Assembly: GCF_000016525.1 (NCBI RefSeq)
Contig: NC_009515.1
Span: 1,762,501 to 1,826,500 of the forward strand
Origin: Methanobrevibacter smithii ATCC 35061
Lineage (GTDB): Archaea; Methanobacteriota; Methanobacteria; Methanobacteriales; Methanobacteriaceae
DNA length: 64,000 nt
Direction of reading: 5' to 3'
Positions 6,965-54,098 of the stretch are shown in pieces. The notes beneath the pieces were generated by a model. That model was not told the DNA's origin. It worked only from the letters and a program-made list of their open reading frames with translations, and did not search any database. Position 1 is the stretch's first letter; each line of letters opens with the position of its first letter. The position numbers and the translations under genes were made by a program.

Positions 6965-6971
6965 AATTTAA

Positions 6972-7001
6972 AAGAGAATTTTACAATTCTCTTATTTTTT
7001 T
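6972..7001 (+). terminator. Hairpin plus T-run after the DUF3344 gene
   Basis: AAGAGAATT (6972-6980) pairs perfectly with AATTCTCTT (6985-6993) across a 4-nt loop and is followed by seven Ts. It begins 8 nt after the stop codon, so transcription of the surface protein may be partly separated from the downstream DUF2162 gene. Confidence 0.65.
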
Positions 7002-7080
7002 AAAATAAATTTTATATAGTTTAAAGTAGAAATGGTAAATACGTAATTAATGTATTATTGATTATATTGAGGAAATAAAT

Positions 7081-7791: not shown

Positions 7792-7809
7792 ATATTTAGG
7801 TGATATTAA

Positions 7810-8454: not shown

Positions 8455-8458
8455 TTTT

Positions 8459-8797
8459 ATGGTTAGAAGAAAACAAAGAAGGAGAAAATCTTCTGATGAT
8501 GACATAGATCCTATGGCAGGTACAACAAACCTTGTTGATGCAATGCTGGTTCTTGCATTAGGTTTTTTAATATTTGTTGTAATTAGTTGGAATATGCAAA
8601 GCGTTATTTTTTCCGACATGAGCCAAGATCAAAAGCAGGCAGTTATGGAATCTATGAAACAGGTTTCAGAAGTTACACAAGGTCAAGAATTAAATGATAC
8701 TCCAGACACATCTCAAAGTTCTGGACAAGGTTTCACTGAGCTGGGAAAAGTTTATAAAGATCCATCGTCAGGGAAGCTGATTATGGTAGAGGGCTAA
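8459..8797 (+). CDS. DUF2149 protein, ExbD/TolR-like partner
   Basis: This is a 112-residue protein with a basic start (VRRKQRRRK), the motif DPMAGTTNLVDAMLVLALG leading into one transmembrane helix (about residues 28-47), and an outside domain ending in LGKVYKDPSSGKLIMVEG. The layout and the Asp at the head of the helix match DUF2149 and resemble ExbD/TolR, in which a membrane Asp carries protons. It starts 5 nt after the ExbB-like stop codon. I read it as the stator partner of that protein. The tail motif G-x-V-Y-x-D-P-x-S-G-K is characteristic of DUF2149, which gives good family confidence, although no function is established. Confidence 0.85.
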   Translation: MVRRKQRRRKSSDDDIDPMAGTTNLVDAMLVLALGFLIFVVISWNMQSVIFSDMSQDQKQAVMESMKQVSEVTQGQELNDTPDTSQSSGQGFTELGKVYKDPSSGKLIMVEG

Positions 8798-32058: not shown

Positions 32059-33096
32059 ATGAATTATAATGATATATTCCAAAAATTTTGTAGAAATCGT
32101 AATATTAAATCCAGTACCAAAAAAGGTTATGATTCTGCTTTAAGGTTATATGAAAATTTTCAAGGAAAATCTATTGAAGATTTATTTGATGAAGCACGTT
32201 TAGAAGAAAATGAAAGAATTCCTCTTAAAGATAGAAAAATAAAAAAGAGATTAATTGAATTTAGAACTTTTTTACTTAATAGTAATTTATCTCCTAATAC
32301 TTCAAAAACATATTTTTCAAAAGTAAAGACATTTTACTTACACTTTGAGTTTGAACTACCTCATTTACCTCAAGCTAAATATGATAAAATTTATGAGACC
32401 AATTATTTAGACTTACCAACTCGAGAACATATACATGAATCACTACTTATTTCATCAATTGACTTAAAAGCAGTGATACTTTTCATGTCCAGCTCAGGAA
32501 CTGCAAAAGCTGAAACTTTAAGTTTGACTGTAGAACATTTTATTCAAGGTACTCAGGAGTATCACCATGGAGGATCCATTAAATTTATTCTAGAAACTCT
32601 TGATAAAAAAACAAATGTTGTTCCAACATTTTATTTGAAAAGAATTAAAACAGATAAATATTATTATACATTTTGCTCTCCAGAAGCTAGTTTAGCTATT
32701 GTCAAATATTTAAAGACACGTGAGAATTTAAAATTGGAGGATAAATTATTTGATTTTACATCCTCATTATTGTTAACCCGATTTCAAGAAATAAATGATA
32801 AAATGGAGTGGGGATTTAAAGGAAAATATAGATTTTTTAGAAGCCATACCCTACGCAAGTTTCATGCATCAAATATTGGCCTTTCTGCTGAATATATTGA
32901 CAGTCTGCAGGGACGCAGTAAAAACGAAGTTCATGAAACATATATTAAAACAAATCCTAAAAAACTAAAAGAAATCTATAAATCAGCTATGAAAAATGTG
33001 ATGATTTATGAAAATAAAGGTCCAGAGATAAAAAAACAAGAATTTAATATAATAATTAATGTTTTTTTATCTGGAAAGGAATATAATATTATTTAA
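32059..33096 (+). CDS. Tyrosine recombinase of the BREX pglX shufflon
   Basis: This 345-residue protein has an N-terminal SAM-like core-binding domain (about 1-105, ending NSNLSPNTSKTYFSKVKTF) and a tyrosine-recombinase catalytic domain. The box II motif is SHTLRKFHASN (His-x-x-Arg) and the nucleophile is the Tyr of HETYIKTNP. Box I reads SSGTAKAETLSL, so the usual Arg looks replaced by Lys or displaced, and the usual box II His is an Arg (LQGRSK). The gene ends 4 nt inside the oppositely oriented pglX cassette C1 and is immediately upstream of the whole pglX array. No tRNA or att site is visible, so it is better read as a DNA invertase than as an integrating-element integrase (inference). 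Confidence 0.85.
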   Translation: MNYNDIFQKFCRNRNIKSSTKKGYDSALRLYENFQGKSIEDLFDEARLEENERIPLKDRKIKKRLIEFRTFLLNSNLSPNTSKTYFSKVKTFYLHFEFELPHLPQAKYDKIYETNYLDLPTREHIHESLLISSIDLKAVILFMSSSGTAKAETLSLTVEHFIQGTQEYHHGGSIKFILETLDKKTNVVPTFYLKRIKTDKYYYTFCSPEASLAIVKYLKTRENLKLEDKLFDFTSSLLLTRFQEINDKMEWGFKGKYRFFRSHTLRKFHASNIGLSAEYIDSLQGRSKNEVHETYIKTNPKKLKEIYKSAMKNVMIYENKGPEIKKQEFNIIINVFLSGKEYNII

Positions 33097-36000
33097 ATCT
33101 TTTTAAGAAGGTTTATCTTTTTGGTTTTGGAACCTTCTTTTTTAATTTCAATATTTTGGAATTTTGCATAGTTTACTTTAACACCATCATCTAAATCTAT
33201 TTCAATATTTTGGTTTGCAATGTGTGCTAGAACTTCATCATATTCTTGTGTTTCTTTTAATTGTTTTTGAAGTTTAGCTTTTTCTTTAGTTGCACGGGTT
33301 ACTTCTTGTTTTGATGTAGAATTGTTAATGATATTGTCATTATTGGTTATTTTCTGTTCTATTGCTTTTTGGGTTTTATGTAAGTAGTCTGTTCTGATTC
33401 TTGCAACTAATGATGGTTCGTATCTGTGCATATAAACTAAACAGTTGAAACCGTTATGTTTGCCGCTTGAGAATTGCCAGTATATTGGGCATTTTTTGTA
33501 TGTCCTTTTGTGGTCGTTAAAGAAGTTTTTAAGTAAGTATTGTCTTATGATTTCTCTTGATGGTTTTTTTGATTTTGATAGTGCTCCTGCAATGAAATCT
33601 AAGTTTTCTTCTAGGGTTTTTTTACCAAAACAGGTTTCAACAAATTTAGTAAAATATCCTACAATATCATCATCGAAATACGCAGTGTCTAAAACTGGAA
33701 TTATGTTGTCATCATCTGGAATAAATTTATTGTAGTTAGTGATGTTAAATTTACCTCCAGCGAATTGTAGTCCTTTTTTATCTAGTGAGTAACGTCCAAA
33801 CATGCATCCTACTGCAAAAGATATAAAAGATGTAATTAAATCATTCTTTGATAACAGATTCATTGAAATTGAATCTTTGGATATATTATAATCTAATTCA
33901 TTGGTTAACTTGTATAGTTTTATAAAGTATTTATTTAAATATTCTTCATTGCTTTTCAATTTATTAAAATCAACTTTTTGTAACTTATTAAATTTTACAA
34001 TTGATTTTTCAATTTTTCTTTCACCAAATATTAAAAGAGGATGGATTGTATAATTCCAACTTATTTCATGATTATCCCAGTTATTTTTTTGAATGATTAT
34101 ATTTTCGGATACAATTTTGTTGATTTTATTTAAATTTGAATTATCAAGTATGATGGGTATATTACTAATTGATCCTATTCCAAAATCTAACGTTGGGGAT
34201 AAAAAGGATAATACTTCCATTGTTACTTTTGAATTTAATAATGCAAATAAATAATTAAAGTAAATTTCATTTTTTATAATGCAGTTTGCTCCTTTTGAAT
34301 CAAATAAAAATCCTTGTTCATTATATCTAAAAGAGATATCACTACTACTTAATGTAGACCATGTTAATGATTTTTTAAAATGAAATTTTGGATTTCTTAT
34401 TGTTGAATGTTTAAAATTACGTATTTTATATCCATTATTTTTCCAATTAATTATTAATTCATTATTTCCAAACCATTTTCTAAACTTCCCTCCTTTATTG
34501 TAAGGAAACCATTTTTCTTTAACATTTTTGGTTTCTTCCATAGAATTACAATTAAAATTTATATTATTGAATTCCACTTCAAACCATTTTCTTAAAAATT
34601 TATCATTATTTCCAGTGGAAATTCCTGCTTTTGGATATGCATATTCAATTAATTTTTTATTTTTAAATGAATTTGTAACATTTAAACTAGCCCAATAAGC
34701 TATAGGGGAAGTTGGAATGTTAGAATATTTTTTACTATTTGAGATATATTTGTAATCAACAGGATTAGATATGGCTTTTAAAACTTTATTTCTTTGTGTA
34801 TCCATGTTTCCTTTAAAATTAGATAATTTTATATATATTCCATTGTATAAACCATTAGTTTTATTTTCATTACAAAAGATATATGTTGCTACTGGGACCA
34901 TTGCAACTTCTGTAAATGCATTATATTCTAGTTGAATTAATGAAGAAATTTCAAGATTTTTCAAAATGTATTCTCTTAATTTTTCATAAGTTTTTATGAA
35001 CATCCAATTAAAAGGAGTAATAAATCCTAAATATGCATTTGATTTTGTGAATTTAGTGTTTCTATAAATAAACATGGAAAATAAATCTTTTGAATAATCT
35101 TTGTAGTATTTTTTAGCAAAATCTTTTAAATTTTTCTCAAATTTATTCATGTAAGGAGGATTAGTCACTACAGCTGAATATTTTTTAGATAATAATTCTG
35201 CTTGATTAATTAAAGCCATTAAATCATTACTAATTATATTTGTAATATTGATATCAGTGAGTGTTGATTTAGAATTATCAATTATTTCATTTAATGATGT
35301 TCTTAAGTTGTTAAAATCAATATTTTTCACTTGAATTAAAGAACCAAATTCTTTTCCAGACTCAAATATTTCTTTTAAATAAATTACATCATTAACAATT
35401 TTTTCATCATGTTTTTGTATAAACTCAATTATTGAATCAGTGATATTTCCAGATTCCTGAATAGCATAAACATTAGGAACAATACCTTTTTGAAGTATTT
35501 TTCTATCATATTTTCTAGCTTTCATTAACACTGCAAAATAAGCTAGTTGATATGCTCTATCATCAATATCCAAACCAAAAATATTATTTTTTAAAATTAA
35601 TTCAGGAATATCTCGTTCTAAATAACCTAACTCTTTATAAATTTCAAAAAATAGATCGAATGCATAAACTAGAATGTGTCCAGATCCCATACATGGATCA
35701 AAGAATGTTAATTCTTCAACAGAAATATTCTCAGATCTTATTTCATCAAGTTTGCTTTGAGTTTCTTCATCTTGTTGTGCTTCTCCAAGATAATATTCTA
35801 AATGTTCTTTTAATGAACTGTTTGGATTTCTTTCTATCCAATATCTACCTAAAGAGTTATCAACCATATATTTAACAACCCAATCAGTTGTAAATAACTG
35901 AGTAGCAGCAGGAATATCCTCTTTTTTAATATTGCTTTTGTTAATGTTAATTACTTGATTTTTTTTCTCTGAAATATAATACTGATATAACCAACCAATA

Positions 36001-36217
36001 ATTTCAACCTGTTTTGTGAAGTCCTCTTCTGGAATTGTGTCAATTAATTGTCTTACAACACCTTCTTCACTTGTAAATGAAATATTTAACAGTAACTCTA
36101 AAGAATCATCTGTTGTTTTAAATAAACCTGGGAGAATTTCATTTAATTTATTACTTTGCTTAATAAATAAAAATCGGAATAATTCATCTAATTTATTTTC
36201 ATCTTTCAACTTGAAAA
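33093..36217 (-). pseudogene. pglX C-terminal cassette C1 (silent in this orientation)
   Basis: This minus-strand frame starts inside the repeat TTTTCAAGTTG at 36217 and reads FKLKDENKLDELF, matching residue about 144 onward of the intact PglX. It keeps the N6-adenine methyltransferase motifs DPCMGSGH and NPPYMN and the conserved end, but lacks the first about 140 residues, a promoter and a start codon. The missing N-terminal part lies just to its right, on the opposite strand (36229-36663). Inversion of segment A would join them in frame as an 1181-residue PglX. Its stop codon overlaps that of the recombinase gene by 4 nt, tail to tail. It also contains one copy of repeat B (35058-35070). 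Confidence 0.88.
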
Positions 36218-36660
36218 CTGGTGAAACTATGGATAAAACTATTTTAAAGAATTTTGCGGTAAATTCAAGAAATAAACTTATTGAAGATACAATTTATAGA
36301 TTAAGTCTACTTGGAATAACTGAAGATGAAATTCAAGACCCTATTGAAGCTGATGGGATGCAAACATTCCAAATAGGTGGCACAAATTTTAGTATTTATG
36401 ATGATGACATAAATAAACGAAAAGAGATTATTGAAGATATTGAATCTAAAGGTTTCAATAATTTTGTTGAAGAAGTTGCATACACATGGTTTAATCGTAT
36501 AATAGCTATTCGTTATATGGAAGTGAATAATTATCTACCAACTAAAACAAGAGTTTTATCCAGTGAAACAGCAGGTAAAATAGAACCAGATATTTTAACA
36601 GATGCATTAGATATTGATTTAGATTACACTCAAGAAGAAAAAGAATTAATTTTCAAGTTG
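36207..36660. other. Predicted invertible segment A (ON/OFF switch of PglX-1)
   Basis: TTTTCAAGTTG (11 bp) is at 36650-36660 on plus and, inverted, at 36207-36217. The 432-bp segment between them carries the ATG, ribosome-binding site and first 144 codons of PglX-1. Both copies have the same codon phase. Inversion yields ELIFKLKDENK, exactly the sequence of the intact PglX at that point, and places the N-terminal part behind the TATA box at 36664-36680. Confidence 0.72.
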
Positions 36661-36663
36661 TAA
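36229..36663 (+). pseudogene. pglX N-terminal fragment (promoterless, OFF orientation)
   Basis: ATG 36229 follows GGTGAAAC and gives 144 residues: MDKTILKNFAVNSRNKLIED through EVAYTWFNRIIAIRYME to EKELIFKL. They align with residues 1-144 of the intact PglX with clear but moderate identity (NYLPTKTRVLSSETAGKIEP is almost the same in both). The frame stops at TAA directly after the repeat TTTTCAAGTTG. Upstream on this strand is antisense C1 coding sequence with no promoter. It is therefore the detached head of PglX-1, silent until segment A inverts. It is not a simple decay product, because the reading frame and ribosome-binding site are intact. Confidence 0.85.
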
Positions 36664-36680
36664 CATTTTATATACAATTA
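36664..36680 (-). promoter_or_regulatory. Fixed promoter of PglX-1 facing segment A
   Basis: On the minus strand TTGTATATAAAATG forms a TATA box just outside segment A. After inversion the ATG would be at 36638, about 32 nt from the TATA centre, much like the intact pglX (about 29 nt). In the current orientation it would transcribe antisense to the N-terminal fragment. Confidence 0.5.
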
Positions 36681-36715
36681 TGTTTTTGTAAAAAATCATT
36701 TTTATAATTATCTCT

Positions 36716-38704
36716 ATTTATAGAAACTTTGATTTTTGTAATGAATACGGATATAATGCATTAATGACCCCCTTTGTATGGATGTTTATTAAAAACTATG
36801 AGAATCTAAGGAAATTTATCATTAACAATAAATCAATTTCATCATTAATTCAATTAGAATACTCAGCATTTTCAGAAGCTACTGTACCAATATGTACTTT
36901 TGTATTATCTAATTTTGATGAAAATTATGCAGGAACATATTTGAAATTATCTGAGTTTACTGGTGGAATGGATGTTCAAAAAGAAAAAGTTCTTCAGATT
37001 ATTAATGGTGATGAAATTCTTAATGATAAAAACAAGTTTATAATGAAAAAAGAAAACTTTAATTCAATTCCTGGAAATCCAATTTCATATTGGGTAAATG
37101 ATTCGATTATAGATATATTTAAGAATTCTAAGAAATTAGGGAAAATAGTAGCTCCAAAATGTGGTTTAAAAACTGGTATTACTGAAAAATATGTCCGAAA
37201 GTGGTTTGAAGTTGATTATAATAATATTGGTTTTGACATACCAAATAGAGAAATGGCTAAAAAATCTATGTTAAAATGGTTTCCTGCATCCAATGGAGGA
37301 CAATATAGAAAATGGTATGGGAATATCGAAGATGTTGTTTTTTGGTATGATGATGGTTATGAAATTAGAAATTTATTTAATCCTAATGGTAAACTTAAAT
37401 CTAGACCTCAAAACATGCAATATTATTTTAAAAAAGGGTTAACTTGGTCTGCATTAACTAGTAAAAAACTTTCATTAAGACTTTCACCAATTGGAAATAT
37501 AATAACTGGTGCAGGTTATGGATTATTTAATAATGAATTTAGTTTATTAACAATTATGGGGTTTCTTAATTCAAAGATAGCAACTTATTTTAGCAGTATT
37601 TTCTCAGAAACATTAAATTTTGAAGTGGGGATATTAAATAGAATGCCTATTCTTATTAAAGAAAATTCTGAAATAAATAAGTTAGTCTCAGATAATATAA
37701 CAATATCTAAAGAAAATTGGGATAATTATGAATTTTCATTTGATTTTATAAAACATCCTTTTATGAATTTTAATTCTGATTTGTTAAAAGAATGTTATGA
37801 GATGTACGCTTCTGATTTTAAGTTAAAATTCAATGAATTGAAAAAAAATGAAGAACAAATAAATGTATTCTTTATTCAAGAATACGATTTAAAAAACCAT
37901 ATTAAAAAAAATGTTCCTAATGAAGATATTACACTTTTTAAACCTAATTTAACTGAAGATATTAAATCTTTTATTTCTTATGCTGTTGGTTGTATGTTTG
38001 GACGTTATTCTTTAGATAATGAAGGTTTACAATTTGCAGGAGGAGAATTTAATATTGATAATTATCATAAATTCATTCCAGATGAGGATAATATTATCCC
38101 AGTTTTAGATTCTGAATATTTTGAAGATGATATTGTTAATCGTTTCGTGGAATTTGTAAAAATATGCTTTGGAGAAGAAACCTTGGAAGAAAACCTTGAT
38201 TTTATAGCTAATGCACTAGCTAAAAATAAAAAACCTTCAAGAGAAAAAATCAGAGAGTATATGCTTAAAAATTTCTTCAATGACCACAAAAAAACATACA
38301 AAAAATGCCCAATATACTGGCAGTTCTCAAGTGGGAAAGAAAATGGTTTCAATTGTCTTGTTTACATGCACCGATATGAACCAAGCTTAGTTGCAAGAAT
38401 CAGAACAGACTACTTACATAAAACACAAAAAGCTATTGAACAAGCAATAGCTAACTGTGATAATATTATAAATCACTCATCATCTAATACTGAGGTTACA
38501 AAAGCAACTAAAGAAAAATCTAAACTTCAAAAGCAATTAAAAGAAACACAAGAATATGATGAAGCTCTTGCACACATAGCAAATCAAAACATCAAAATTA
38601 ACTTAGATGATGGTGTTAAAGTAAACTATGCAAAATTCCAAAACATAGAAGTTTCAAAAGAAGGAAAGAAATCTAAAAAAATTAATTTGCTTAAAAAATT
38701 GTAA
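36716..38704 (+). pseudogene. pglX C-terminal cassette C2 (silent)
   Basis: The open frame begins within repeat B and reads IYRNFDFCNEYGYNALMTPF, aligning with PglX just after the NPPY motif. It continues through the target-recognition region to the conserved C-terminus (FSSGKENGFNCLVYMHRYEP and KKINLLKKL). It lacks the catalytic half, a promoter and a good start codon; ATG 36764 lies within the frame but without a convincing ribosome-binding site. The last about 240 residues are almost identical to C4. It ends at 38704 and C3 begins at 38705, so the cassettes abut. Confidence 0.85.
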
Positions 38705-40288
38705 CTTTATAATACAAAATTGGAATCACTAGCGAATGTTAAACAAGGTTTAGCTACTGCAGATAATAACAGATTCCTAAGATATTGGTGGGAAGTTGAT
38801 TTTAATAATATTGGGTTTTCTTCAATAAACTGCGAAGATTCAAAAAACACTAATAAAAAATGGTTTCCCTACAACAAAGGTGGGGATTATCGTAAATGGT
38901 GGGGTAATCAAGAATTTGTTGTTAACTGGGAAAACGATGGATATGAAATAAGAAATATCATAGGTCCTAATGGTAGAGTTAGATCAAGAGCCCAGAATAC
39001 TCAATTTTATTTCCATAAGTCATTAAGTTGGTCTAAAATTTCTAGTGGAAAAGTTGCATTTAGATATTACCCAAATGGATTTATTTTTGATGTAGCAGGA
39101 TGTTCTGTATTCTTAGATAAAAAAAATATAAATTATATATTTGGGTTTTTAAATTCTAATATTTGTGGAGATATTTTAGATTTAATATCTCCAACATTAA
39201 ATTACGAAGTCGGTCATGTCGCTTCACTTCCAATAATATTTGATGAATCTAAACAAAATGAAATAGAAAACTTAGTTATAACCAATATAAATATTGAAAA
39301 AGAAGATTGGGATGAAAATGAAACAAGTTGGAACTTTAAATCACATCCATTTGTTTTTTTCAAAGGAGATTCATTATCTGAAAAGTATAATTTCTGGCAA
39401 AAATACAAAACGAACCAATTTAATTATTTAAAAACAAATGAAGAAAAATTAAATAAACTATTTTATGATATATACAATGTTGATGGTGATCATGAAATTG
39501 AAGATAAATATATATCCCTTAATAAAAATGATTTAAAAAAAGATATTGAATCCATAATATCTTATTCAGTTGGATGCATGTTTGGTCGTTATAATTTAAA
39601 TCAAGGAGGCTTATGTTTCGCAGGAGGTGAATTTGATTTAAATAAGTATCATAATTTCATTCCAGATGATGATAACATTATTCCCGTATTAGACACAGCA
39701 TACTTTGATGATGATATTGTCGGATATTTCACAAAGTTTATTGAAAAATGCTTTGGTAAAGAAAAACTAGAAGAAAACTTAGATTTCATTGCAAAAGTAT
39801 TATCAAACTCATCTAAACCTTCAAGAGAAGTATTAAGAGACTATTTTTTAAAGAATTTCTTTAATAGTCATAAAAAAATCTATAAAAAACATCCTATTTA
39901 TTGGCAGTTCTCAAGTGGTAAAGAAAACGGTTTCAATTGTCTAATTTACATGCACAGATACGAGCCAAGTTTAGTTGCAAAAATAAGAACTGATTACCTG
40001 CATAAAACTCAAAAAGCTATTGAACAAAGAATAGCTAACACTAACACTATCATTAATAATTCCACTTCAAAACAAGAGGTTGCTAATATAACTAAGGAAA
40101 AAGTTAAACTTCAAAAGCAATTAAAAGAAACTCAAGAATATGATGAACTTTTAGCACATATTGCAAATCAGAACATTGAAATAGATTTGGATAACGGGGT
40201 TAAATTTAATTATGAATTATTCCAGAATATAGAAATTAAAAAAGAAGGTAAAAAATCTAAAAAATTAAATTTGCTTAAAAAGATATAA
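38705..40288 (+). pseudogene. pglX C-terminal cassette C3 (silent)
   Basis: This 527-residue open frame (LYNTKLESLANVKQGLATAD onward) begins exactly at repeat C and aligns with residue about 652 onward of the intact PglX, including the block RFLRYWWEVDFNNIGFSS that the two share. It supplies an alternative distal target-recognition region and C-terminus. It has no promoter or start of its own. Its stop codon is 2 nt from that of the intact pglX on the other strand, tail to tail, the classical arrangement of an invertible specificity cassette. Confidence 0.86.
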
Positions 40289-41849
40289 AATTAAATCTTT
40301 TTTAGAAGATTAATTTTTTTATTTTTCATTCCTTCTCTTGAAATAATAATATCTTGAAGCATTGAATAATTTTCTTTTATTCCATCATCTAAATTAAAAG
40401 ATAAATTTAAATTTGAAACATGGTTTAATGCTTCATCATATCCAATTGTTTCTTCAAGTTGTTTAATTAATTTATTTTTTTCTTTTGTGATAATTGCTTT
40501 TTCAGAACTTGAATCAGAAGTATTTAGCAAATTTTCACAATCTAATAATCTCTGTTCAATTGCTTTTTGGGTTTTATGTAAATATTCTGTTCTAATTCTA
40601 GCAATTATTTGTGAATCAATTCTATGAGAATAGATTAAACAGTTAAATGCATTATTACTTCCACTAGAAAATTGCCAGTAGATTGGGCATTTTTTATATA
40701 ATTTCTTATGGTCATTGAAAAAATGTTTAAGTAAATATTCTCTTATTTTTTCTCTACTTGTTTTATTATTCTTAATTAATGCATTAGCTATAAACTCCAA
40801 GTTTTCTTCAAGAGTTTCTTCTCCAAAGCAAATTTTTACAAATTCAACAAAACGACCAACCATGTCGTCTTCAAAATATTCAGTATCCAATATTGGAATA
40901 ATATTGTCATCATCAGGAATAAACCTAGAATAATTCTCAATATTAAAATTTGAATTTGTAGATATTAAACAATCATCATCTAAACTATATCTACCAAACA
41001 TACATCCAATTGCATATGAAACAAATGATTTTATATCCATTTCATAATTTGAACTATTTATTGAAACATGTTTATCCTCAACATTATAATTTGAATCAAT
41101 ATCATATATTTCACTAAAAATATTATTTAATTTTGTTTCATTTGATTTAAGTTGATTAAATTGTTCTTTTTTATAAGATTCCCAAGATTTAAATGAGTTC
41201 TTAAGATTATTTTCATTAAATTTTAATAATGGATGTTTCTTAAAGTTCCATGAAGTTTCATAATCATCCCAATCATCTTTACAAATCTTAATATTTTCCA
41301 AAACAATATTATTTATCTCTTCAACTTTATTTTCATCAATAATAATGGGTAATGAAGCAATATGGCCTATTTCATAGTTTAATGTTGGTGAAATTAAGTC
41401 TAAAATATTTCCACAAACATTTGAATTTAAAAAACCAAAAATATAATTCAAATAATCATCAACAAATACAGAACATCCTGCTACATCAAAAAGAAATCCA
41501 TTTGGATAATATCTAAATGCAATTTTTCCGCTTGAAATCTTAGACCAACTTAATGATTGATGAAAATAAAATTGGGAATTTCTTAAAACAGATTTTTTAA
41601 AGTTTCTTAATTCCTCACCATCATTTTCCCAATTGATAATAAATTCTTGATTTCCCCACCATTTTCTAAATGATCCACCTTTATTATAAGGAAACCATTT
41701 TTTATTAGTGTTTTTTGAATCTTCGCAGTTTATTGAAGAAAACCCAATATTATTAAAATCAACTTCCCACCAATATCTTAGGAATCTTGTATTTTCACCA
41801 GTTTGTAATCCAACTTTAATATCTCCTAATGAACTTAAGTTTGTATTAT
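38709..41849. other. Predicted invertible segment C (swaps distal PglX-2 with C3)
   Basis: ATAATACAAA (10 bp) at 38709-38718 on plus is inverted at 41840-41849 inside the intact pglX. Both begin at the second codon position (FNNTNLSS in pglX, LYNTKLES in C3). Inversion would replace PglX residues from about 655 to the end with those of C3 without disturbing the frame. Confidence 0.65.
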
Positions 41850-43809
41850 TAAAACAAGCTATTAAATTATCATCAATCCAATATGCTATTGGACTTCCAG
41901 GGATTTTATCAAAATTAAATTGTTTTATTATGTACTTGTTTTTATCATTAAAAAACAATGGATTCACAATATCATTTTCAACATCAGATAATTTCACATG
42001 ATAAAAAGTACTGTTGTAGTTCATCAAGTTTATTTTTCTAAATACTGTTGCTGATGTTCCAAATGCAATTTTCATTACCATATTATCCATGTGCAATAAA
42101 TTTGAAATGGTTGTTGTTTCAATTAATTTCTTTCTGAACTTCTCAAAACTTGACAAAAACATCCATGATTGCATTGTAACCATACAATTAAATCCATAAT
42201 CTTTTATCATTTCTAAACCTTTTTCTAAAAATACAGCAAATAAATCTGTTTTAGTTAAAGGAAATTTAGATTTAATATAATCTTTTAAATTTGGATTCAT
42301 ACCATTATTTCCCATATAAGGAGGATTTGTTACTACAACATCATATTTTTTAGATAATAATATGGATTGATTAATAATATTTTTCAAAAGATTAATTTCA
42401 TCTAAATACTTAAGTTTAGTTAAATTATTATTTGATTCAAATTTAGAAATTAAATTATTTATTTTTTCAAAATCAATAGGTTTTATAGTTAATATGCTTC
42501 CAAATTCTTTTCCATTTTTAAAAGAAGATATTAGATAATTGAAAGCATCTTCAATTGTTCTGTCTTGTGAAATCAATTCTTCAATAAACTCTTTAGAAAT
42601 TGAATTTGTCTCTTCAATTGAGCATAATAATGGTGAAATACCTTTTGTTAATATTCTACGATTATATTTTCTAGCTTTCATTAAAACTGCAAAATAAGCT
42701 AGTTGATATGCTCTTTTATCAATATCTAAACCATAAATATTGTTTTTTAAGATTGATTCACAAGCATCTTTTTCTGTGAATCCTTCTGAAACATATATGT
42801 CCATAAGAACTTCAAAAACATAAACTAAAATATGGCCTGAACCCATACAAGGATCAATAACAGTAATATCTTCTGGTTTTAATATTTCAGATTCTTTTCT
42901 AATTGTAATTAATTGTTGTTCAACTTCTGGCTCTTGTTTCGCTTCATCAACATAATATTTCCATTTTGATTTTAATTCATTATTAGGATGGCCTTCTAAC
43001 CACAATCTTCCTACAGAATTTTCAACCATATATTTTACAATCCAATCAGGTGTAAATAATTGTGTTGCAGCAGGAATTCTCTCTTTAGAAATCTTTATTC
43101 GTTTTTTAAGATTTGCAAAAGTTTCATCTTTTAATTCTGTGTTATAAAATTGATATAACCATCCTATTACTTCAACTTGACTTTCAAAGTCTTTTTCAGG
43201 AATTGTATCAATTAATTGTCTTACAACCCCATCTTCATTGGTAAATGAAATGTTTAATAATAGTTCTAAATAGTCATCGGTTTTTTCAAATAAACCTGGA
43301 AGTATTTCATTTAATTTATTACATTGTTTTATAAATAAGAATCTGAATAATTCATCTAATTTATTTTCATCTTTAAGTTTAAAAATTAACTCTTTATCTT
43401 CTTGAGTGTAATCCAAATCAACATCAAATGCTTCAGTTATTATATCAGGTTCTATTTTACCTGCAGTTTCAGAGGATAAAACTCTTGTTTTAGTTGGTAG
43501 GAAATTATTAATTTCCATAAATCTTATAGCAATTATACGATTAAACCATGTATAAGCTACCTCTTCAACAACATTTTCAAAACCTTTTTGCTTAACTTCT
43601 TTTACTAATCTTTCTCTTTTTGAAATATCATTATCATATATACTATTAGTTGATCCACCAAGTTGATATGTTTCTATTCCATTGGCTGAGCTTATTGGTT
43701 CATAAATGTTATCTTTATCAATTCCAACTAAACTCATTTTATATTCTACATCTTCCATTAACTTCTTACGAGAATTAATGGCAAATGTTTTAATTGCAGT
43801 TTTATCCAT
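40291..43809 (-). CDS. pglX: BREX adenine-specific DNA methyltransferase PglX (intact)
   Basis: This is a 1172-residue PglX, the full family length. It has an N-terminal helical region (MDKTAIKTFAINSRKKLMED), SAM motif I DPCMGSGH (about residue 319) and catalytic motif NPPY (about residue 495, TNPPYMGNNG), then a long target-recognition region and a conserved C-terminus ending KKINLLKKI. PglX methylates a specific non-palindromic site at N6-adenine and marks self DNA for BREX. It is transcribed leftward from a promoter at 43831-43846, away from the brxABC operon. It holds two internal recombination repeats: D at residue about 414 and C at about 654. The state shown is therefore 'own C-terminus' ON. 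Confidence 0.95.
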   Translation of the reverse strand: MDKTAIKTFAINSRKKLMEDVEYKMSLVGIDKDNIYEPISSANGIETYQLGGSTNSIYDNDISKRERLVKEVKQKGFENVVEEVAYTWFNRIIAIRFMEINNFLPTKTRVLSSETAGKIEPDIITEAFDVDLDYTQEDKELIFKLKDENKLDELFRFLFIKQCNKLNEILPGLFEKTDDYLELLLNISFTNEDGVVRQLIDTIPEKDFESQVEVIGWLYQFYNTELKDETFANLKKRIKISKERIPAATQLFTPDWIVKYMVENSVGRLWLEGHPNNELKSKWKYYVDEAKQEPEVEQQLITIRKESEILKPEDITVIDPCMGSGHILVYVFEVLMDIYVSEGFTEKDACESILKNNIYGLDIDKRAYQLAYFAVLMKARKYNRRILTKGISPLLCSIEETNSISKEFIEELISQDRTIEDAFNYLISSFKNGKEFGSILTIKPIDFEKINNLISKFESNNNLTKLKYLDEINLLKNIINQSILLSKKYDVVVTNPPYMGNNGMNPNLKDYIKSKFPLTKTDLFAVFLEKGLEMIKDYGFNCMVTMQSWMFLSSFEKFRKKLIETTTISNLLHMDNMVMKIAFGTSATVFRKINLMNYNSTFYHVKLSDVENDIVNPLFFNDKNKYIIKQFNFDKIPGSPIAYWIDDNLIACFNNTNLSSLGDIKVGLQTGENTRFLRYWWEVDFNNIGFSSINCEDSKNTNKKWFPYNKGGSFRKWWGNQEFIINWENDGEELRNFKKSVLRNSQFYFHQSLSWSKISSGKIAFRYYPNGFLFDVAGCSVFVDDYLNYIFGFLNSNVCGNILDLISPTLNYEIGHIASLPIIIDENKVEEINNIVLENIKICKDDWDDYETSWNFKKHPLLKFNENNLKNSFKSWESYKKEQFNQLKSNETKLNNIFSEIYDIDSNYNVEDKHVSINSSNYEMDIKSFVSYAIGCMFGRYSLDDDCLISTNSNFNIENYSRFIPDDDNIIPILDTEYFEDDMVGRFVEFVKICFGEETLEENLEFIANALIKNNKTSREKIREYLLKHFFNDHKKLYKKCPIYWQFSSGSNNAFNCLIYSHRIDSQIIARIRTEYLHKTQKAIEQRLLDCENLLNTSDSSSEKAIITKEKNKLIKQLEETIGYDEALNHVSNLNLSFNLDDGIKENYSMLQDIIISREGMKNKKINLLKKI

Positions 43810-43921
43810 AATTTCACCAAGTTTAATTAAAACTATATATATCTATTTGGTGATATTAAATTGTTGCTATGTTTATCGGGAAATTCAAAACAGTCAAATA
43901 ATATTTTGAATTAACAAGACA
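42561..43921. other. Predicted invertible segment D (PglX-2 expression unit)
   Basis: ACAAGACA (8 bp; 12 bp with one mismatch, ACAAGACANAAC) is at 43914-43921 on plus at the left edge of C4 and inverted at 42561-42568 within pglX. Codon phase is the same (SQDRT in pglX, QDKTN in C4). Inversion would turn the promoter and first 414 residues of PglX around to read into C4. Confidence 0.55.
43810..43850 (-). promoter_or_regulatory. Promoter and ribosome-binding site of pglX
   Basis: On the minus strand an AT-rich TATA box (AGATATATATAGTT, about 43831-43846) stands about 29 nt upstream of ATG 43809, with GGTGAAATT directly before the start. The short leader fits archaeal promoters. Confidence 0.55.
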
Positions 43922-46221
43922 AAACCAATGAAAAAGATTGGAATTATTTATATAATATATTTAAAAATGCAAAAGAATATGGTAGTATTTTAGATATTAA
44001 AAATATTAATTTTGATGAATTATTTAATGATATAGGTACTTATGAATCAGATAAAAATAATTTAAATCAATATAAATACCAAAATGAAATTCAATTAATG
44101 AAAAATATTATCCAACAATCAAAATTTCTTGTTAAAAATTATGATATTGTTGCCACAAATCCTCCATACATGGGAAATAGTGGTATGAATCCAAATTTAA
44201 AAGATTATTTAAAGAAAAATTATCCAAATTCAAAATCAGATTTGTTTGCAGTATTTATTGAAAAATGTCATGATTTCTGTAATGAAAAAGGTTTTGTTGC
44301 AATGATTACTCAACAATCATTCATGTTTTTATCAACATTTGAAAAATTAAGGGTTGAATTAATTAATAATCACACCATAATTAATATGGCTCATTTAGGA
44401 GCTCATGCATTTGAAGAAATTGGTGGTGAAGTTGTACAAGCAACAACTTTTGTTAATAAAAATAATTTAATTGAAAATTACAAATCAACATTTCACAGAT
44501 TAACTGAGTTTAATTCAGAAAGCAAAAAAGAAGAAGAGTTTCATAATGATGAAAATAAATTTATATTATCACAAAGTATTTTCAATTTAGCACCTTCTTT
44601 TGAATTTATTTTTTGGGAAAATCACAATATCTTAAATTCATTTAAATTATATCCTCCATTAAGTAAGTATGGTAAACCTTCAAGAGGTTTAGCAACATAT
44701 AATGACAATAAATTCTTACGATATTGGTATGAAGTATCTTTTAATAAAATAGGTTTTGGGTGTTCTTCTGTTGATGATTCTATAAAATCTAAAAAAAAAT
44801 GGTTCCCTTACAATAAAGGTGGGGATTATAAAAAATGGTATGGAAACAATAACTTTGTTGTTAATTTCTATAATGGAGGTGAAGAAATTAAAAAATCTGG
44901 AAAGGGTGCTTTTAGTAATATTAATTATTATTTTAAAAAAGGATTAACATGGTCAAGAATTTCTAGTAGTTATTTTGGAGTGAGATATCATGATGTTGGT
45001 TTTATAATTGGTGATGCTGGACCGTCTGTTTTAATGAATGATGATTCAAATATTTTTTATATTTTTGGAATATTATTGTCTAATTTTACATTAAGAATAA
45101 TATCTGCTTTAAATTCAACAATGACTTTTCAAGTTGGTGATTTAAATAAAGTTCCAATCAATATGAATAACCATGAAAAAGAAAATATTGAAAAATTAGT
45201 AAAATCCTGTATTTATATTTCAAAAGAGGAATGGGATGAATTTGAATTATCATGGGACTTTAAAAACCATTATGCAATAAAATTTAGTCAAGATTCATTT
45301 GAAAATACTTTTTTTAAATATATGGATTTTAAAAATAATCAATATAATAAATTAAAGAAAAATGAGTTTATATTGAATAATTTAATTAATAAAATTTATA
45401 ATATTACTGATATTCAAGATAGTGTAGTGTCTATTAAAAATGAAATTACATTAACTAAAATACATTTAGAAGAATTTGTAAAATCATTTATTTCATATGC
45501 TGTTGGTTGTATGTTTGGTCGTTACTCTTTAGACAATGAAGGTTTACAATTTGCTGGAGGTGAATTTAATATTAATAATTACTCTAAATTCATTCCAGAT
45601 GATGATAATATTATTCCAGTCTTAGATTCTGAATACTTTGAAGATGATATTGTTAATCGTTTTGTAGAATTTGTAAAAACATGCTTTGGAGAAGAAACCT
45701 TAGAAGAAAACCTTGATTTTATAGCTAATGCACTAGCTAAAAATAAAAAACCTTCAAGAGAAAAAATAAGAGATTATCTCCTTAAAAACTTTTTCAATGA
45801 CCACAAAAAAACATACAAAAAATGTCCAATTTACTGGCAATTTTCAAGCGGCAAAGAAAACGGATTCAATTGTCTAGTTTATATGCACAGATATGAACCA
45901 AGTTTAGTTGCAAGAATCAGAACAGATTACTTGCATAAAACTCAAAAAGCTATTGAGCAGGCAATAGCTAACTGTGATAATATAATTAATCACTCATCAT
46001 CAAAACAAGAAGTTGTAAAAGCAACAAAAGATAAAGCTAAACTTCAAAAACAATTAAAAGAAACACAGGAGTATGATGAAGCACTATCTCACATAGCTAA
46101 TCGAAATATAGAAATTGACCTAGATGATGGTGTTAAAGTTAATTATGCTAAGTTCCAAAATGTCCAGGTTTCAAAAGAAGGTAAAAAATCTAAAAAAATT
46201 AACCTTCTAAAGAAACTTTAA
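43915..46221 (+). pseudogene. pglX C-terminal cassette C4 (silent)
   Basis: The frame is open from 43915 (QDKTNEKDWNYLYNIFKNAK) to the TAA at 46219-46221, 768 residues. It aligns with PglX from about residue 414, so it includes the NPPY motif (ATNPPYMGNSG) but not SAM motif I. It is an alternative second half of PglX with its own target-recognition region. ATG 44098 inside it is unlikely to be used. It ends about 70 nt before brxA. Its C-terminal quarter is nearly identical to that of C2, which could also allow homologous recombination. Confidence 0.86.
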
Positions 46222-46294: not shown

Positions 46295-46888
46295 ATGAAG
46301 TATAGTGCTGGAATTATGAGTCATTCATTTTGGTATCTTGAAACAAAAAACACTGCTGAATATCTAGCTGAAGATATTTCAAAAAAAGAGTTAATGGAGT
46401 TATCTTTAACTGAAAATATTTATCAGGTAGATAGTGAACGTAGAGCACGTGAATTGACTAATGTATGTTATCGTCGATTAAATGGATTTTCTAATGATTT
46501 ATTAATATATTTATCAACTTGTGATCAAAATTCAGGTAAATTATTAGTTTTAATTTCAATTTTAAGAAATGATAAATTATTTTTTGAGTTTATGCATGAA
46601 GTCTTCAGAGAGCATATTATTTTAGGAAATTACACTATAAAAGATTCAGATTTAGATATTTTTTTCATGAATAAATCTAACCAAAGTGAAGTAATTGAAA
46701 ATTGGAAAGATACAACTCTTCGAAAGGTTAAAACTAATTATAAAAATTTTTTAATTGAAGCAGACCTTTTAGAAAAAGAAGAAGGGAATTATAAAATTAT
46801 TTTACCATTTGTAGATTTTAAATTAAAAGAATTATTAACTCAAAATAATTTAACACCATTTTTAAATGCTATATCTGGAGGAATCTGA
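46295..46888 (+). CDS. brxA: BREX protein BrxA
   Basis: This 197-residue protein matches BrxA (DUF1819): MKYSAGIMSHSFWYLETKNT at the N-terminus, then SERRARELTNVCYRRLNGFS. BrxA is a small, conserved, helical DNA-binding component of type 1 BREX and is essential in some systems. It is the first gene of a tightly packed brxA-brxB-brxC-DUF1802-pglZ-brxL operon. A weak AGTGAT site precedes the ATG and the upstream 73 nt carry the promoter. The stop codon overlaps the brxB start by 1 nt. Confidence 0.9.
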   Translation: MKYSAGIMSHSFWYLETKNTAEYLAEDISKKELMELSLTENIYQVDSERRARELTNVCYRRLNGFSNDLLIYLSTCDQNSGKLLVLISILRNDKLFFEFMHEVFREHIILGNYTIKDSDLDIFFMNKSNQSEVIENWKDTTLRKVKTNYKNFLIEADLLEKEEGNYKIILPFVDFKLKELLTQNNLTPFLNAISGGI

Positions 46889-47466
46889 TGAATATTGATG
46901 AGAAGCTTAGTAAAATTGAACCAAAAATTAAAGAGCCTTCATTTCTTGAGAATAAAGGTTTAAGTAATGAAGTAGGTTATTATATTTTTGATTATGATCC
47001 GAAATATGAACTTAAAGTTCGTGAAGAAGTTTCAAGGATTAAAAATAAAATCAATAATTCAAGTTATGCATTTACTATTAAAGAATTTGATTTATATGAA
47101 ATTATCATTGATATTTTAAATGAAAGAGGTTATTTAGAAAAAGTTTTTAATTTTGAAGAAAAAAAAGGGATAGAATTTACAACTAAAGCAATTATCAGTC
47201 TTTTAAAATTAAATTCAGATAACAATAATGTTATTGTAAACTATATTTTAGAGAGAACTCCAGATAACTGTGTTGTATTTTTAACTGGTGTTGGAAAGGC
47301 TTATCCAATATTAAGATCACATAATGTTTTAAATAACTTACATCAAAAGTTAGACGAGGTTCCAGTTGTTTTATTTTTCCCAGGACAATATTCTGGTAGA
47401 GAATTAGTTTTATTTAATACTATTGAAGGAAGTAACTATTATCGAGCATTTCCATTGATTAGGTGA
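46888..47466 (+). CDS. brxB: BREX protein BrxB
   Basis: This 192-residue protein matches BrxB (DUF1788): helical start, YYIFDYDPKYELKVREEVSR, and a conserved second half with VVFLTGVGKAYPILRSHNVL and VPVVLFFPGQYSGRELVLFN. The latter motif (FPG.Y.G..L.LF) is the family hallmark. BrxB is a small essential BREX subunit of unknown mechanism that associates with BrxC and PglZ. It overlaps brxA by 1 nt and ends 4 nt before brxC. Confidence 0.92.
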   Translation: MNIDEKLSKIEPKIKEPSFLENKGLSNEVGYYIFDYDPKYELKVREEVSRIKNKINNSSYAFTIKEFDLYEIIIDILNERGYLEKVFNFEEKKGIEFTTKAIISLLKLNSDNNNVIVNYILERTPDNCVVFLTGVGKAYPILRSHNVLNNLHQKLDEVPVVLFFPGQYSGRELVLFNTIEGSNYYRAFPLIR

Positions 47467-47470
47467 ACAT

Positions 47471-50400
47471 ATGCAAATAAAAAACATGTTTGAAAAGGAT
47501 ATCGACAGGGATATCAAAGGAGTAATTAAAGTCGGTCAAAATGATGATGAAAATATTTATCAGGAACTGGATGAATATGTTGTTACAAATGAACTATTGA
47601 AACATTTTACTAAGTTTTTTTCAAGTTATAATAAGGGAATACAAAGTCCCACTGATGATATTGGTGTTTGGATTTCAGGGTTCTTTGGAAGCGGTAAATC
47701 TCACTTTTTAAAAATTTTATCATATATTCTAGATAGTAATCTTAAAGTTCATGGAAGAAGACCAATTGATTTTTTCAAGGAAGATGGAAAAATCAAAGAT
47801 TCAATGGTTATTGGAGATATGGAAGCTGCAACAAATGTTAGTTCTGATGTAGTTTTATTTAATATAGATTCTAAATCATCATCACAATCAAGTTCAAATA
47901 AAGATGATATTTTAAATGTATTTGTAAAAGTTTTTAATGAAATGCAGGGCTATTGCGGAGGAATGCCCTTTTTAGCAGATTTTGAAAAAAAATTAGATGC
48001 AAAAAATAAATTTGAAGAGTTTAAAACAGAATTTGAAAATATCAATGGAATGGATTGGGAAGAATCAAGAGATGAATTCTACTTTATAAGTGATGATATT
48101 ATACAAAGTGTTGTAAATATTGGATTCATGAGTGAAAACGAAGCTAACAATTGGGCTTCAAAAGCAGAAGAAAACTTTAAGTATTCAATTGAAGATTTTG
48201 CAAATGAAGTAAATGAATACTGTATCAATAAAGGAAATAATCATCATGTAATATTTTTAGTAGATGAAGTTGGACAATATATAGCAGATGATACTAAATT
48301 AATGCTAAACTTACAAACTATAGTTGAAGAATTAGGAATTAAATGTCATGGAAAGGCTTGGGTTGTTGTTACAAGCCAACAAAACATTGATGACATCACC
48401 AGAGACATAAAAGGAATGGATTTTTCTAAAATTCAGGGAAGATTTAAAACACGTTTATCCCTATCCTCTTCAAATGTAGATGAAGTAATTAGGAGACGGA
48501 TTCTAGCAAAAACTGATGTTGCCCAACAAACTTTAGAAGCAGAATATCCAAGCTTTGAGCCTATTTTAAAAAATATTTTAACTTTTGAAAAATCTGCAGA
48601 AATGAAAACATATGAAAATGCAAGAGACTTTGCAAATATCTATCCATTTGTTCCTTATCAATTCAATCGTGTTCAGGATGTTTTAACATCAATAAGGGAA
48701 CATTCCTCATCAGGAAAGCATATGGCTGATGGTGAGCGTTCAATGCTTGCACTCTTCCAAGAATCTGCAATTGAAATTAAAAATGGTTCTGAGGGCCAAT
48801 TAGTTCCATTCAATATATTTTATAATGCTATTGAACAATTTATTGATCATACTAACAGTCAGGTAATTAATAAAGCACGGGACAATAAGGAATTGTATCC
48901 TTTTGATGTTGAAGTTTTAAAAGTACTTTTCATGATTAAATATGTAAAAGAAATTAAATCTACATCTAAAAATTTAACCACATTGTTAATTTCTAACATT
49001 AATGAAGACAGACTGGAGTTACAAAATAAAGTAGATAAATCATTATCCAGATTACTTGAACAAACTTTAATCCAAAAAAATGGGGAGGTTTATTCATTTT
49101 TAACAAATGAAGAACAAGACATTAATCGTGAAATTAAAAATCAGATAGTTGATAATGGTGAAGTTTTAGATAATGCTGCAAATAGGATTTTCCAAGAAAT
49201 TTACCCTAAAAACAAATATCGTTATAGCAATAGATATAATTTCCAATTTAATCAATCAATTGATAATAAAAAGATTAATAATAGAGAATTTGATATTGGA
49301 ATGAGAATAATTACTCCGTTTTATACATCAGATTTAAGTGATTGCTCTCAAGCTACTTTTGAAGAAAGTAATATGCATAATATTTTAAAAGGATTATCAG
49401 AATCTAACAATGAAGTTGTTGTACATTTACTTTCTGATTTAACAGTATTTGATGAAATAAAAGAAGCACTGCAAATTCAAAAATATTTAACTAAAAAAAG
49501 TGCTGAAATGAAGGTTGAACTCAGAAGCAGAAAACAAGAGGAATATAATGATAAAATAGAAAGAATCAAATTATTCCTTGAATCTTCTATTAAAGATGCA
49601 ATAATTTATATTAAAGGAGATAAAGTAGATATTGCTGAAAAAAATGTTGAATCAAGACTTGATGAATCAATGGGCAAGTTAGTTGATAAAGTTTATAATA
49701 AATTAAGTTATATGGACTTTGCACCTGATAAAAGTGATATTAAAAAAGAATTAACAAATGAATATCAGCAGACACTGATAGCTAGTGAAACAAAAGCTAT
49801 GAATGCAGTAAATGATATGGACAGTTATATTTCAGATCAGTCAAAACTACATAATACTCTTACACTAAAAAGTCTAATAAACAGATATTCAAAAGCTCCT
49901 TATGGTTTTGTCAATTTGGATGTGCAATGGTTACTTGCTTCATTATTTGCACAAAAAAGAATTGTCTTAACAATTAATAGTGATGAAATTTCTTTAAGAA
50001 ATACTGATGCCTCCAAAATTTTAGATTATTTAACAAAAAATGAATACTTAGAAAAACTATTAGTATCTGAAAAAGAAGTTATTGATAGTAGTAAAATTAG
50101 GAAAGTTAAAGAAGTTTTAAAAGAGGTTTACAGTTTGAATTTAACTCATGATAATGATGAAAGAATCATGGATGAATTTAAACGTGTTAATACATCTAAA
50201 ATTGAAGAAATTGATAAATGTCTTTTAGAATTTAGAATATCAAATAAATATCCTGGCAAATCAATATTGGAAGAATCAAAAGAATTATTTAATGATGCTA
50301 ACAATAAGAAAAACACATTGCAATTCTATAACTATGTGTCTGATAATGATGAAGAATTTTTGGATTTGGCTGATGATTTAGATCCTGTTTTAGCATTCTT

Positions 50401-51055
50401 TAATGGAAGTCAAAAAGCTATTTTCGATGAATCCTGTGAAGTATATAAAGTTTATGAAGAAAATATTAACTTAATCAATGATTCTGATTTATCAGATGTT
50501 GCATCTGAAATTTACAGAATTATTTCAATGCCAAACCCTTATTCAAATATTAGAAAACTACCTGAATTAAACAATAAATTCACTACACATTTTGATGAAA
50601 TATTAGAAGATAAAAAAACAATTATTTTAAATGGAATAAAGGAAGATTATGAAAGTATCAAATTAAGACTAAATACTGATGAGTTGAAAGCTAAATTTGA
50701 AAATAAATTTATATCTGAATTTGATTCACTTAAAAATAAATTGGATTCAGAAAAAAATATTGCTATTATTGATGGAATCACAATGGAATCAGAAAATCTT
50801 AAAAACAATTGCATCCATGAAATTGATTTATTTATTAATTCTATAACTCCTATTTATCCTCCAGAAGGTGCAATAAATAAACCAGTATCTCCACAACCAA
50901 TTCCTGTGGAAGTGGATGTGGACATTAAAACAATAACATTATCACCTAAGGTTAAAATCGAATCTGAAGATCAAATTGATGAATTCTTACAAAAAGTAAA
51001 AACAGAACTTAAAAATAAATTAGAAAATGCAGATATTATTAATTTAAAACTATGA
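47471..51055 (+). CDS. brxC: BREX ATPase BrxC
   Basis: This 1194-residue protein begins MQIKNMFEKDIDRDIKGVIK and has a P-loop ATPase domain with Walker A at about residues 71-81 (GFFGSGKSHFL), followed by VIFLVDEVGQYIA as Walker B. The long C-terminal half is rich in charged coiled-coil-like helices and ends with a helical tail. Type 1 BREX BrxC is about 1200 residues, so it is full length. It is thought to power or regulate the methyltransferase-PglZ complex on DNA. It is 4 nt after brxB. Confidence 0.94.
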   Translation: MQIKNMFEKDIDRDIKGVIKVGQNDDENIYQELDEYVVTNELLKHFTKFFSSYNKGIQSPTDDIGVWISGFFGSGKSHFLKILSYILDSNLKVHGRRPIDFFKEDGKIKDSMVIGDMEAATNVSSDVVLFNIDSKSSSQSSSNKDDILNVFVKVFNEMQGYCGGMPFLADFEKKLDAKNKFEEFKTEFENINGMDWEESRDEFYFISDDIIQSVVNIGFMSENEANNWASKAEENFKYSIEDFANEVNEYCINKGNNHHVIFLVDEVGQYIADDTKLMLNLQTIVEELGIKCHGKAWVVVTSQQNIDDITRDIKGMDFSKIQGRFKTRLSLSSSNVDEVIRRRILAKTDVAQQTLEAEYPSFEPILKNILTFEKSAEMKTYENARDFANIYPFVPYQFNRVQDVLTSIREHSSSGKHMADGERSMLALFQESAIEIKNGSEGQLVPFNIFYNAIEQFIDHTNSQVINKARDNKELYPFDVEVLKVLFMIKYVKEIKSTSKNLTTLLISNINEDRLELQNKVDKSLSRLLEQTLIQKNGEVYSFLTNEEQDINREIKNQIVDNGEVLDNAANRIFQEIYPKNKYRYSNRYNFQFNQSIDNKKINNREFDIGMRIITPFYTSDLSDCSQATFEESNMHNILKGLSESNNEVVVHLLSDLTVFDEIKEALQIQKYLTKKSAEMKVELRSRKQEEYNDKIERIKLFLESSIKDAIIYIKGDKVDIAEKNVESRLDESMGKLVDKVYNKLSYMDFAPDKSDIKKELTNEYQQTLIASETKAMNAVNDMDSYISDQSKLHNTLTLKSLINRYSKAPYGFVNLDVQWLLASLFAQKRIVLTINSDEISLRNTDASKILDYLTKNEYLEKLLVSEKEVIDSSKIRKVKEVLKEVYSLNLTHDNDERIMDEFKRVNTSKIEEIDKCLLEFRISNKYPGKSILEESKELFNDANNKKNTLQFYNYVSDNDEEFLDLADDLDPVLAFFNGSQKAIFDESCEVYKVYEENINLINDSDLSDVASEIYRIISMPNPYSNIRKLPELNNKFTTHFDEILEDKKTIILNGIKEDYESIKLRLNTDELKAKFENKFISEFDSLKNKLDSEKNIAIIDGITMESENLKNNCIHEIDLFINSITPIYPPEGAINKPVSPQPIPVEVDVDIKTITLSPKVKIESEDQIDEFLQKVKTELKNKLENADIINLKL

Positions 51056-51065
51056 GGTTATTTAA

Positions 51066-51581
51066 ATGTCAGAATCAATAACTAAATGTTTAAATGAATG
51101 GAATGCAACAATTGAAGCATTAGGTCAAGGAAAACAATCAATTTTAATTAGAAAATATGGTACAAATGTTGATGACTTTCTTTTATTTCCAACAGTAAGT
51201 TATGCCCTTAAAGATAATTATTTAGATAGTTTCCAAGAAGATTATAAAGATTTTGTTAGAGAAAATGCACTTCCAAATAAAAAGGATTCTAAATTTGAAG
51301 TAAAATATTATGCAAAAGTTGAAAAAGTTGTAGAAAAATCCTCAACTAGAATTGGTTCTTTAAATAATTATCATATCTGGACAAGAGACCATGTAAAATC
51401 ATACTTAGGTAATTCAAAGGCACAAGTTTGGATTTTAAGAGTATATGAACTTGAAAGTCCCCAATATTTAAACAGGACCCGTGGAATGAGATATGCTAAT
51501 GTAGATATGGAAGTTAAATTGGATGATTTAAAACCTGTATTGTCTGATAGTGAATTTGAAAGTATTTTAAAAGGGATTTAA
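51066..51581 (+). CDS. DUF1802 protein in the BREX operon
   Basis: This 171-residue protein shows DUF1802 features: ECLN-type helix then NEWNATIEALGQGKQSILIR, FLLFPTVSYALK, a tyrosine-rich middle, QVWILRVYELESPQ and a closing VLSDSEFESIL. DUF1802 occurs near restriction and other defence genes, but no activity is established. Here it sits between brxC and pglZ, the place that pglX holds in canonical type 1 BREX, 10 nt after brxC and abutting pglZ directly. It is therefore probably co-expressed and may be a core or regulatory subunit of this variant (inference). Confidence 0.78.
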   Translation: MSESITKCLNEWNATIEALGQGKQSILIRKYGTNVDDFLLFPTVSYALKDNYLDSFQEDYKDFVRENALPNKKDSKFEVKYYAKVEKVVEKSSTRIGSLNNYHIWTRDHVKSYLGNSKAQVWILRVYELESPQYLNRTRGMRYANVDMEVKLDDLKPVLSDSEFESILKGI

Positions 51582-54086: not shown

Positions 54087-54098
54087 GAGTGATATTCA

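Follow-up and report, generated by a model that had tools for sequence, protein, structure and literature searches.

The 454-bp segment A in the pglX array of Methanobrevibacter smithii ATCC 35061 is, with a probability that we put at about 0.73, an invertible element that, flipped by a recombinase, turns a type I BREX system's second PglX on or off, and it would be nested in a shufflon of recognition specificity. The inversion concerns the head of pglX-1, i.e., one of two PglX proteins, and not BREX as a whole. We examined a window of 64,000 nucleotides of the source genome (contig NC_009515.1, positions 1,762,501 to 1,826,500 of the forward strand), and all positions below are counted from its first letter. 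The features are collected in Table 1.

Using PADLOC, we find brxA, brxB, brxC, pglX, pglZ, and brxL, the complete gene set by which a type I BREX is recognised. The pglX array lies upstream of brxA in the order recombinase (+), C1 body (-), head (+), promoter (-), C2 (+), C3 (+), pglX-2 (-), and C4 (+). Over residues 4-1156, the product of pglX-2 matches two crystal structures of BrxX/PglX (8c45 and 9ewz). Because this gene is intact and has its own TATA box, BREX itself is probably on, and the present state would be OFF for PglX-1 only. A DUF1802 gene (51066-51581) sits between brxC and pglZ; to our knowledge, it does not belong to the canonical type I BREX order.

Table 1. Features of the pglX array and the adjoining BREX genes, in window coordinates.
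Feature	Position	Strand	Remark
Tyrosine recombinase, likely invertase	32059-33096	+	gene end overlaps the 3′ end of pglX-1
pglX-1 body (C1), residues 141-1181, startless	33093-36218	-	overlaps the recombinase stop at its 3′ end
Site B copy in C1 (TATTTATAGAAAC, coding sense, near residue 525)	35058-35070	-	13-bp exact inverted match to 36715-36727
Invertible segment A, OFF orientation	36207-36660	.	perfect 11-bp inverted repeat at both ends, 454 bp
Site A, left copy CAACTTGAAAA	36207-36217	-	5′ side of the head; in the leader when ON; identical in the ON junction of G066 (L059)
Detached pglX-1 head, codons 1-144	36229-36660	+	tblastn of PglX-1 1-144; open ORF; part of the N-terminal helical bundle
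Site A, right copy TTTTCAAGTTG	36650-36660	+	exact reverse complement of CAACTTGAAAA; codes F-K-L, residues 142-144
Fixed TATA box TATATAAA	36667-36674	-	would drive pglX-1 after inversion; conserved in L059
Site B copy opening cassette C2	36715-36727	+	1185-aa PglX after B inversion
Cassette C2, headless PglX from residue ~525 (MTase domain end, TRD, C-terminus)	36715-38704	+	tblastn
Cassette C3, headless PglX from residue ~650 (TRD start)	38709-40288	+	opens with site D ATAATACAAA (38709-38718)
Intact pglX-2, 1172 aa	40291-43809	-	PADLOC PglX, full length
Site D partner within pglX-2	41840-41849	-	D inversion gives a 1179-aa PglX
Site C partner within pglX-2 (ACAAGACA, coding sense)	42561-42568	-	C inversion gives a 1182-aa PglX
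Cassette C4, headless PglX from residue ~414	43914-46221	+	opens with site C (43914-43921)
BREX type I genes brxA, brxB, brxC, DUF1802 gene, pglZ, brxL	46295-56147	+	PADLOC, Pfam

The original prediction had described a 454-bp segment between 11-bp inverted repeats that holds the ATG, the ribosome-binding site, and 144 codons of PglX-1, and this description is confirmed. The repeats are exact reverse complements; GGTG, then the ATG (36229), and then the 144 codons sit between the site-A copies on the + strand, and the body lies on the opposite strand. Flipping segment A in silico, we obtained a single open 1181-aa PglX ORF that is 53% identical to the intact pglX-2 over its length. The head/body join of this ON form (DNA GAATTAATTTTCAAGTTGAAAGATGAAAAT) reads ELIFKLKDENK, the residue string of the intact copy that inversion had been expected to restore, and GAATTAATTTTCAAGTTGAAAGATGAA is the sequence expected in reads from the ON orientation. 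The distance from the TATA centre to the ATG becomes 31-33 nt in the ON form versus 27-29 nt in pglX-2; about 32 nt, close to the spacing of pglX-2, had been foreseen. The head was also said to be promoterless at present, and the 100 nt that precede it in this orientation hold no TATA element. In its anatomy, that is, in the flanking repeats, the restored ORF, and the TATA position, segment A has the form of a phase-variable inverton, in which inversion of a segment between repeats alters expression. The feature is real and well formed, and it is very likely a phase switch.

In the present orientation, the fixed promoter would still read into segment A, antisense to the head, and continue into the body, which is therefore not necessarily deprived of transcription. 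What the body is missing is its first residues, together with start codon and ribosome-binding site. In the Salmonella PglX, residues 1-227 form an N-terminal helical bundle, residues 227-661 the methyltransferase, and residues 662-849 the recognition domain (PMC11341690). Placed on this map, the OFF body is without more than half of the bundle, whereas motif I (residue 314) and motif IV (NPPY, residue 493) are retained. If the detached head and the headless body were both expressed and complemented each other as a split PglX, the present state would not be OFF. The head ORF ends within one codon of site A, which would give a clean 144-aa product, and the promoter still faces the body; the missing TATA element upstream of the head and the missing start signal near the 5′ end of the body speak against it. 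We know of no precedent for a split PglX and hold this explanation to be highly improbable.

The 11-bp repeat by itself is not significant and proves nothing, because such repeats are common in this AT-rich locus. At a spacing of 200-2000 bp, we counted 128 pairs of 11-bp inverted repeats, against 76 ± 14 in Markov shuffles, and rejected the repeat as stand-alone statistical evidence. The 11-mer occurs a third time at 45126, within C4, in ordinary coding sequence, and this occurrence was taken as chance. What carries weight is that the repeat coincides with both breakpoints of the gene, that the frame fits, and that a relative, G066, has the predicted junction with few differences. An exact 11-bp match at two fixed breakpoints has a chance of ~3e-6 per register. 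The coding copy spells F-K-L as TTC-AAG-TTG, which are minority codons here (frequency product, 0.3%); seen post hoc, this choice is suggestive only.

G066 is another Methanobrevibacter, with a recombinase 93% identical to that of the window, and it carries the predicted promoter-site-head ON junction. The junction runs from the promoter through TTACAACTTGAAAA to CTGGTGAAAyTATGGATAAAACTATTTTAAAG and is near-identical over ~100 bp. The contig in question (C31) reads AATTGTATATAAAGTGTTACAACTTGAAAACTGGTGAAATTATGGATAAAACTATTTTAAAG, a few bases off the junction predicted for the ON form; it stops 44 nt from site A, inside the head, and thus covers only the first site-A copy. The remaining head and the core were not found in the G066 assembly. 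Searching 67 genomes of the genus for a 23-base site-plus-TATA pattern, we obtained exact matches in the source genome and G066 only. The ON and OFF junctions were also sought in viral contigs, where neither had a match. The closest intact gene is that of G056, in which pglX-1 is uninterrupted and without either site-A copy; therefore, the switch would be confined to a narrow lineage. In yet another genome (L063; G041 C59, ~4970-8530), pglX-1 is split by ~3.5 kb of sequence that, judged by eye, resembles transposon remnants.

Compared with G056, the head has a dN/dS of 0.12 and the core (residues 145-525) one of 0.10, which denotes strong purifying selection, and both pglX-1 fragments are fully open. 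From these low values, it follows that the broken gene stayed functional until recently. Such recent functionality would be expected of a switch and equally of a very young break. A one-off inversion at a chance 11-bp repeat could indeed have broken pglX-1 and left a young pseudogene with no switch. The frequency of such repeats here would allow it, OFF is the sole form known for the source genome, the site is missing from most relatives, and the intact pglX-2 could relax selection. We nevertheless consider a single accident unlikely. Both pieces are open and were formerly under strong constraint, a tyrosine recombinase gene abuts pglX-1, the ON junction with an identical site occurs in G066, and the same locus holds more inverted cassettes with in-frame junctions. 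The restored junction had been put forward as what separates this case from random gene breakage; it points in the right direction, while leaving a one-off inversion at the repeat its small share of probability.

The further cassettes place the switch of PglX-1 within a larger arrangement. With segment A in ON, an in-silico inversion at site B fuses the core to C2, and the resulting 1185-aa PglX contains ...DLFSMFIYRNFDFCNEYGYN... at the join. As this inversion predicts, the B-type fusion DLFSMFIYRN-FDFC is found naturally in G041, G056, G058, and G089, in contrast to the source genome, whose core is fused to a different cassette. Comparing PglX-1 with the G056 protein, we see the identity fall from 88% to 55% at site B and return to 87% in the C-terminus. 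In G066, site B, next to the promoter, forms the start of the cassette adjoining the recombinase, which is the arrangement produced by a B inversion. C4 opens with an 8-bp match to pglX-2 at residue ~414 and C3 with a 10-bp match at residue ~650, which lies approximately at the start of the recognition domain. As in an hsdS-type shufflon, silent inverted cassettes share in-frame junctions, and the B, C, and D inversions yield ORFs of 1179-1185 aa. Junctions C and D carry less weight in our view than A and B, since between homologous cassettes any junction at an equivalent position can be expected to keep the reading frame. A second contig of G066 (C19; L113/L164) ends exactly where the C4 homology begins, at site C; this end might resemble an assembly break in a heterogeneous region.

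In their C-terminal parts, the cassettes share 78-88% identity over ~740 bp, and no motif common to sites A-D and the hsdS repeats of relatives was found. Both observations would suit ordinary homologous recombination among diverged pglX copies as the process that rearranges the array, with the recombinase acting elsewhere and segment A as a by-product. However, the breakpoints of segment A share 11 bp only and their flanks are non-homologous, a situation that homologous recombination could rarely use, and the recombinase family tracks pglX/hsdS loci. We therefore judge this route to be distinctly unlikely.

In the adjoining recombinase, Pfam recognises a SAM-like integrase domain only, and no sequence match for the catalytic part was found in Pfam or PDB; for this reason, the fold was used for the assignment. 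The AlphaFold model (mean pLDDT 79) matches the archaeal XerA, Cre, and the integron integrase IntI, with low TM-scores, and the best Foldseek match is XerA 5hxy (E 1.5e-5). K197, H263, R266 (H-x-x-R), and Y295 are invariant in 25 homologues. An XerA/Cre-like fold together with the catalytic K, H-x-x-R, and Y identifies the protein as a tyrosine recombinase. Where the first catalytic arginine usually stands, the sequence reads GTAKAET, and residue 150 is K, R, or M across the family, a point that we count against the proposed switch. Unlike the serine recombinase of a Hin/Gin invertase system, the adjacent recombinase has the tyrosine-recombinase fold.

Homologues with at least 87% identity adjoin pglX in six of six cases, and two near 80% identity adjoin another BREX locus. 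Type I hsdS/hsdM genes are the neighbours of ten more-distant homologues, several of which are placed between inverted hsdS pairs; the searched 5 kb held no such neighbour of any kind at 22 of the 40 homologue loci, many of which are at contig ends. We assign the recombinase as an invertase mainly because its family associates with pglX/hsdS loci, and the adjoining gene likely encodes the enzyme that flips segment A. The unrelated sites A-D would be odd for a single recombinase and count against this assignment. The two ~80%-identity recombinases (L064, L065) lie directly downstream of brxL in their different BREX locus, where this pglX type is absent within 5 kb. In other Methanobacteriaceae, relatives with 59-80% identity sit between inverted type I hsdS pairs (L066 7205-11418, L039 8008-11582, L067 6994-11043, and L047 8367-11984), and these pairs are probable archaeal hsdS shufflons. 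One short contig (L023; G091 C117, 3373 bp) carries three tandem recombinase genes, one 68% and two ~43% identical to the window's enzyme.

The original prediction of an ON/OFF switch thus gains from the ON junction of G066, the purifying selection, and the overlapping recombinase. It is narrowed to one PglX and set within the B, C, and D exchanges; its reversibility is what we infer. The mechanism that we propose leaves the promoter and the body fixed, and the leader, the start codon, and the first 144 codons would flip. In the OFF state of the source genome, the promoter would transcribe the head backwards, and the body would be startless with part of the N-terminal bundle missing. In the ON state, promoter, leader, head, and body would be aligned to give the 1181-aa PglX, whose DNA-recognition domain is unlike that of PglX-2. 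The module of core, head, and promoter would itself flip at site B between the recognition cassettes C1 and C2, and pglX-2 would exchange with C3 at site D and with C4 at site C. Inversion of A would add a second methylation/defence specificity, while exchanges at B, C, and D would change which specificity it is. As the outcome, cells of one population would differ in the number and identity of the DNA motifs that BREX marks and defends. More tentatively, one recombinase that tolerates several unrelated short sites may both flip the start codon and shuffle recognition domains among at least five cassettes, a nested two-level archaeal switch for which we see clearly less than an even chance.

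If the switch of PglX-1 is real, anti-virus methylation in the main human gut methanogen is phase-variable through DNA inversion, and BREX specificity switching becomes directly testable in a cultured archaeon. It could account for strain-to-strain variation in virus susceptibility and methylomes, and a single archaeal recombinase family would be connected with shuffled DNA-recognition domains in BREX as well as in type I restriction systems. Should the two-level switch hold as well, the gut methanogen would gain a combinatorial, phase-variable defence.

Several known systems resemble this locus. Invertible elements of the fimS type are flipped by the tyrosine recombinases FimB/FimE. Like segment A, fimS is a segment of a few hundred bp with inverted repeats of ~9-11 bp; it carries the promoter within the segment, whereas at pglX-1 the promoter would stay in place and the coding head would turn. 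Intragenic invertons, which Chanin et al. reportedly described in 2024 (cited in PMC11868660), likewise have an inversion partly inside coding sequence. Unlike in those, the start codon and N-terminus move here, so that the full protein would be present or absent. The hsdS shufflons of type I restriction-modification, e.g., the pneumococcal SpnIII (PMC11868660), share the headless inverted recognition cassettes beside a recombinase, and relatives of the M. smithii recombinase lie between inverted hsdS pairs. Instead of a type I HsdS subunit, the protein to be shuffled here is PglX, which combines methyltransferase and recognition domain in a single chain, and a start-codon switch is added.

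The closest likeness is to phase-variable pglX in bacterial type 1 BREX, sometimes with an adjacent recombinase, which Goldfarb et al. are said to have described in 2015. Phase variation confined to pglX among the BREX genes is described as common, citing earlier work (PMC11341690), and frequent pglX disruptions from earlier work are cited as possible phase variation (PMC9122589). Our literature search found no paper connecting Methanobrevibacter with phase-variable BREX. The bacterial loci and this one have in common a type I BREX, inverted and truncated pglX copies, and a recombinase gene beside them. In contrast to the bacterial cases, the present locus is archaeal, has a separate 454-bp head ON/OFF segment within a cassette-exchange module, and contains four different short junctions. 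Recombinase-linked phase variation of pglX is thus already known, and the archaeal nested head switch with its recognition shufflon is a variant of it.
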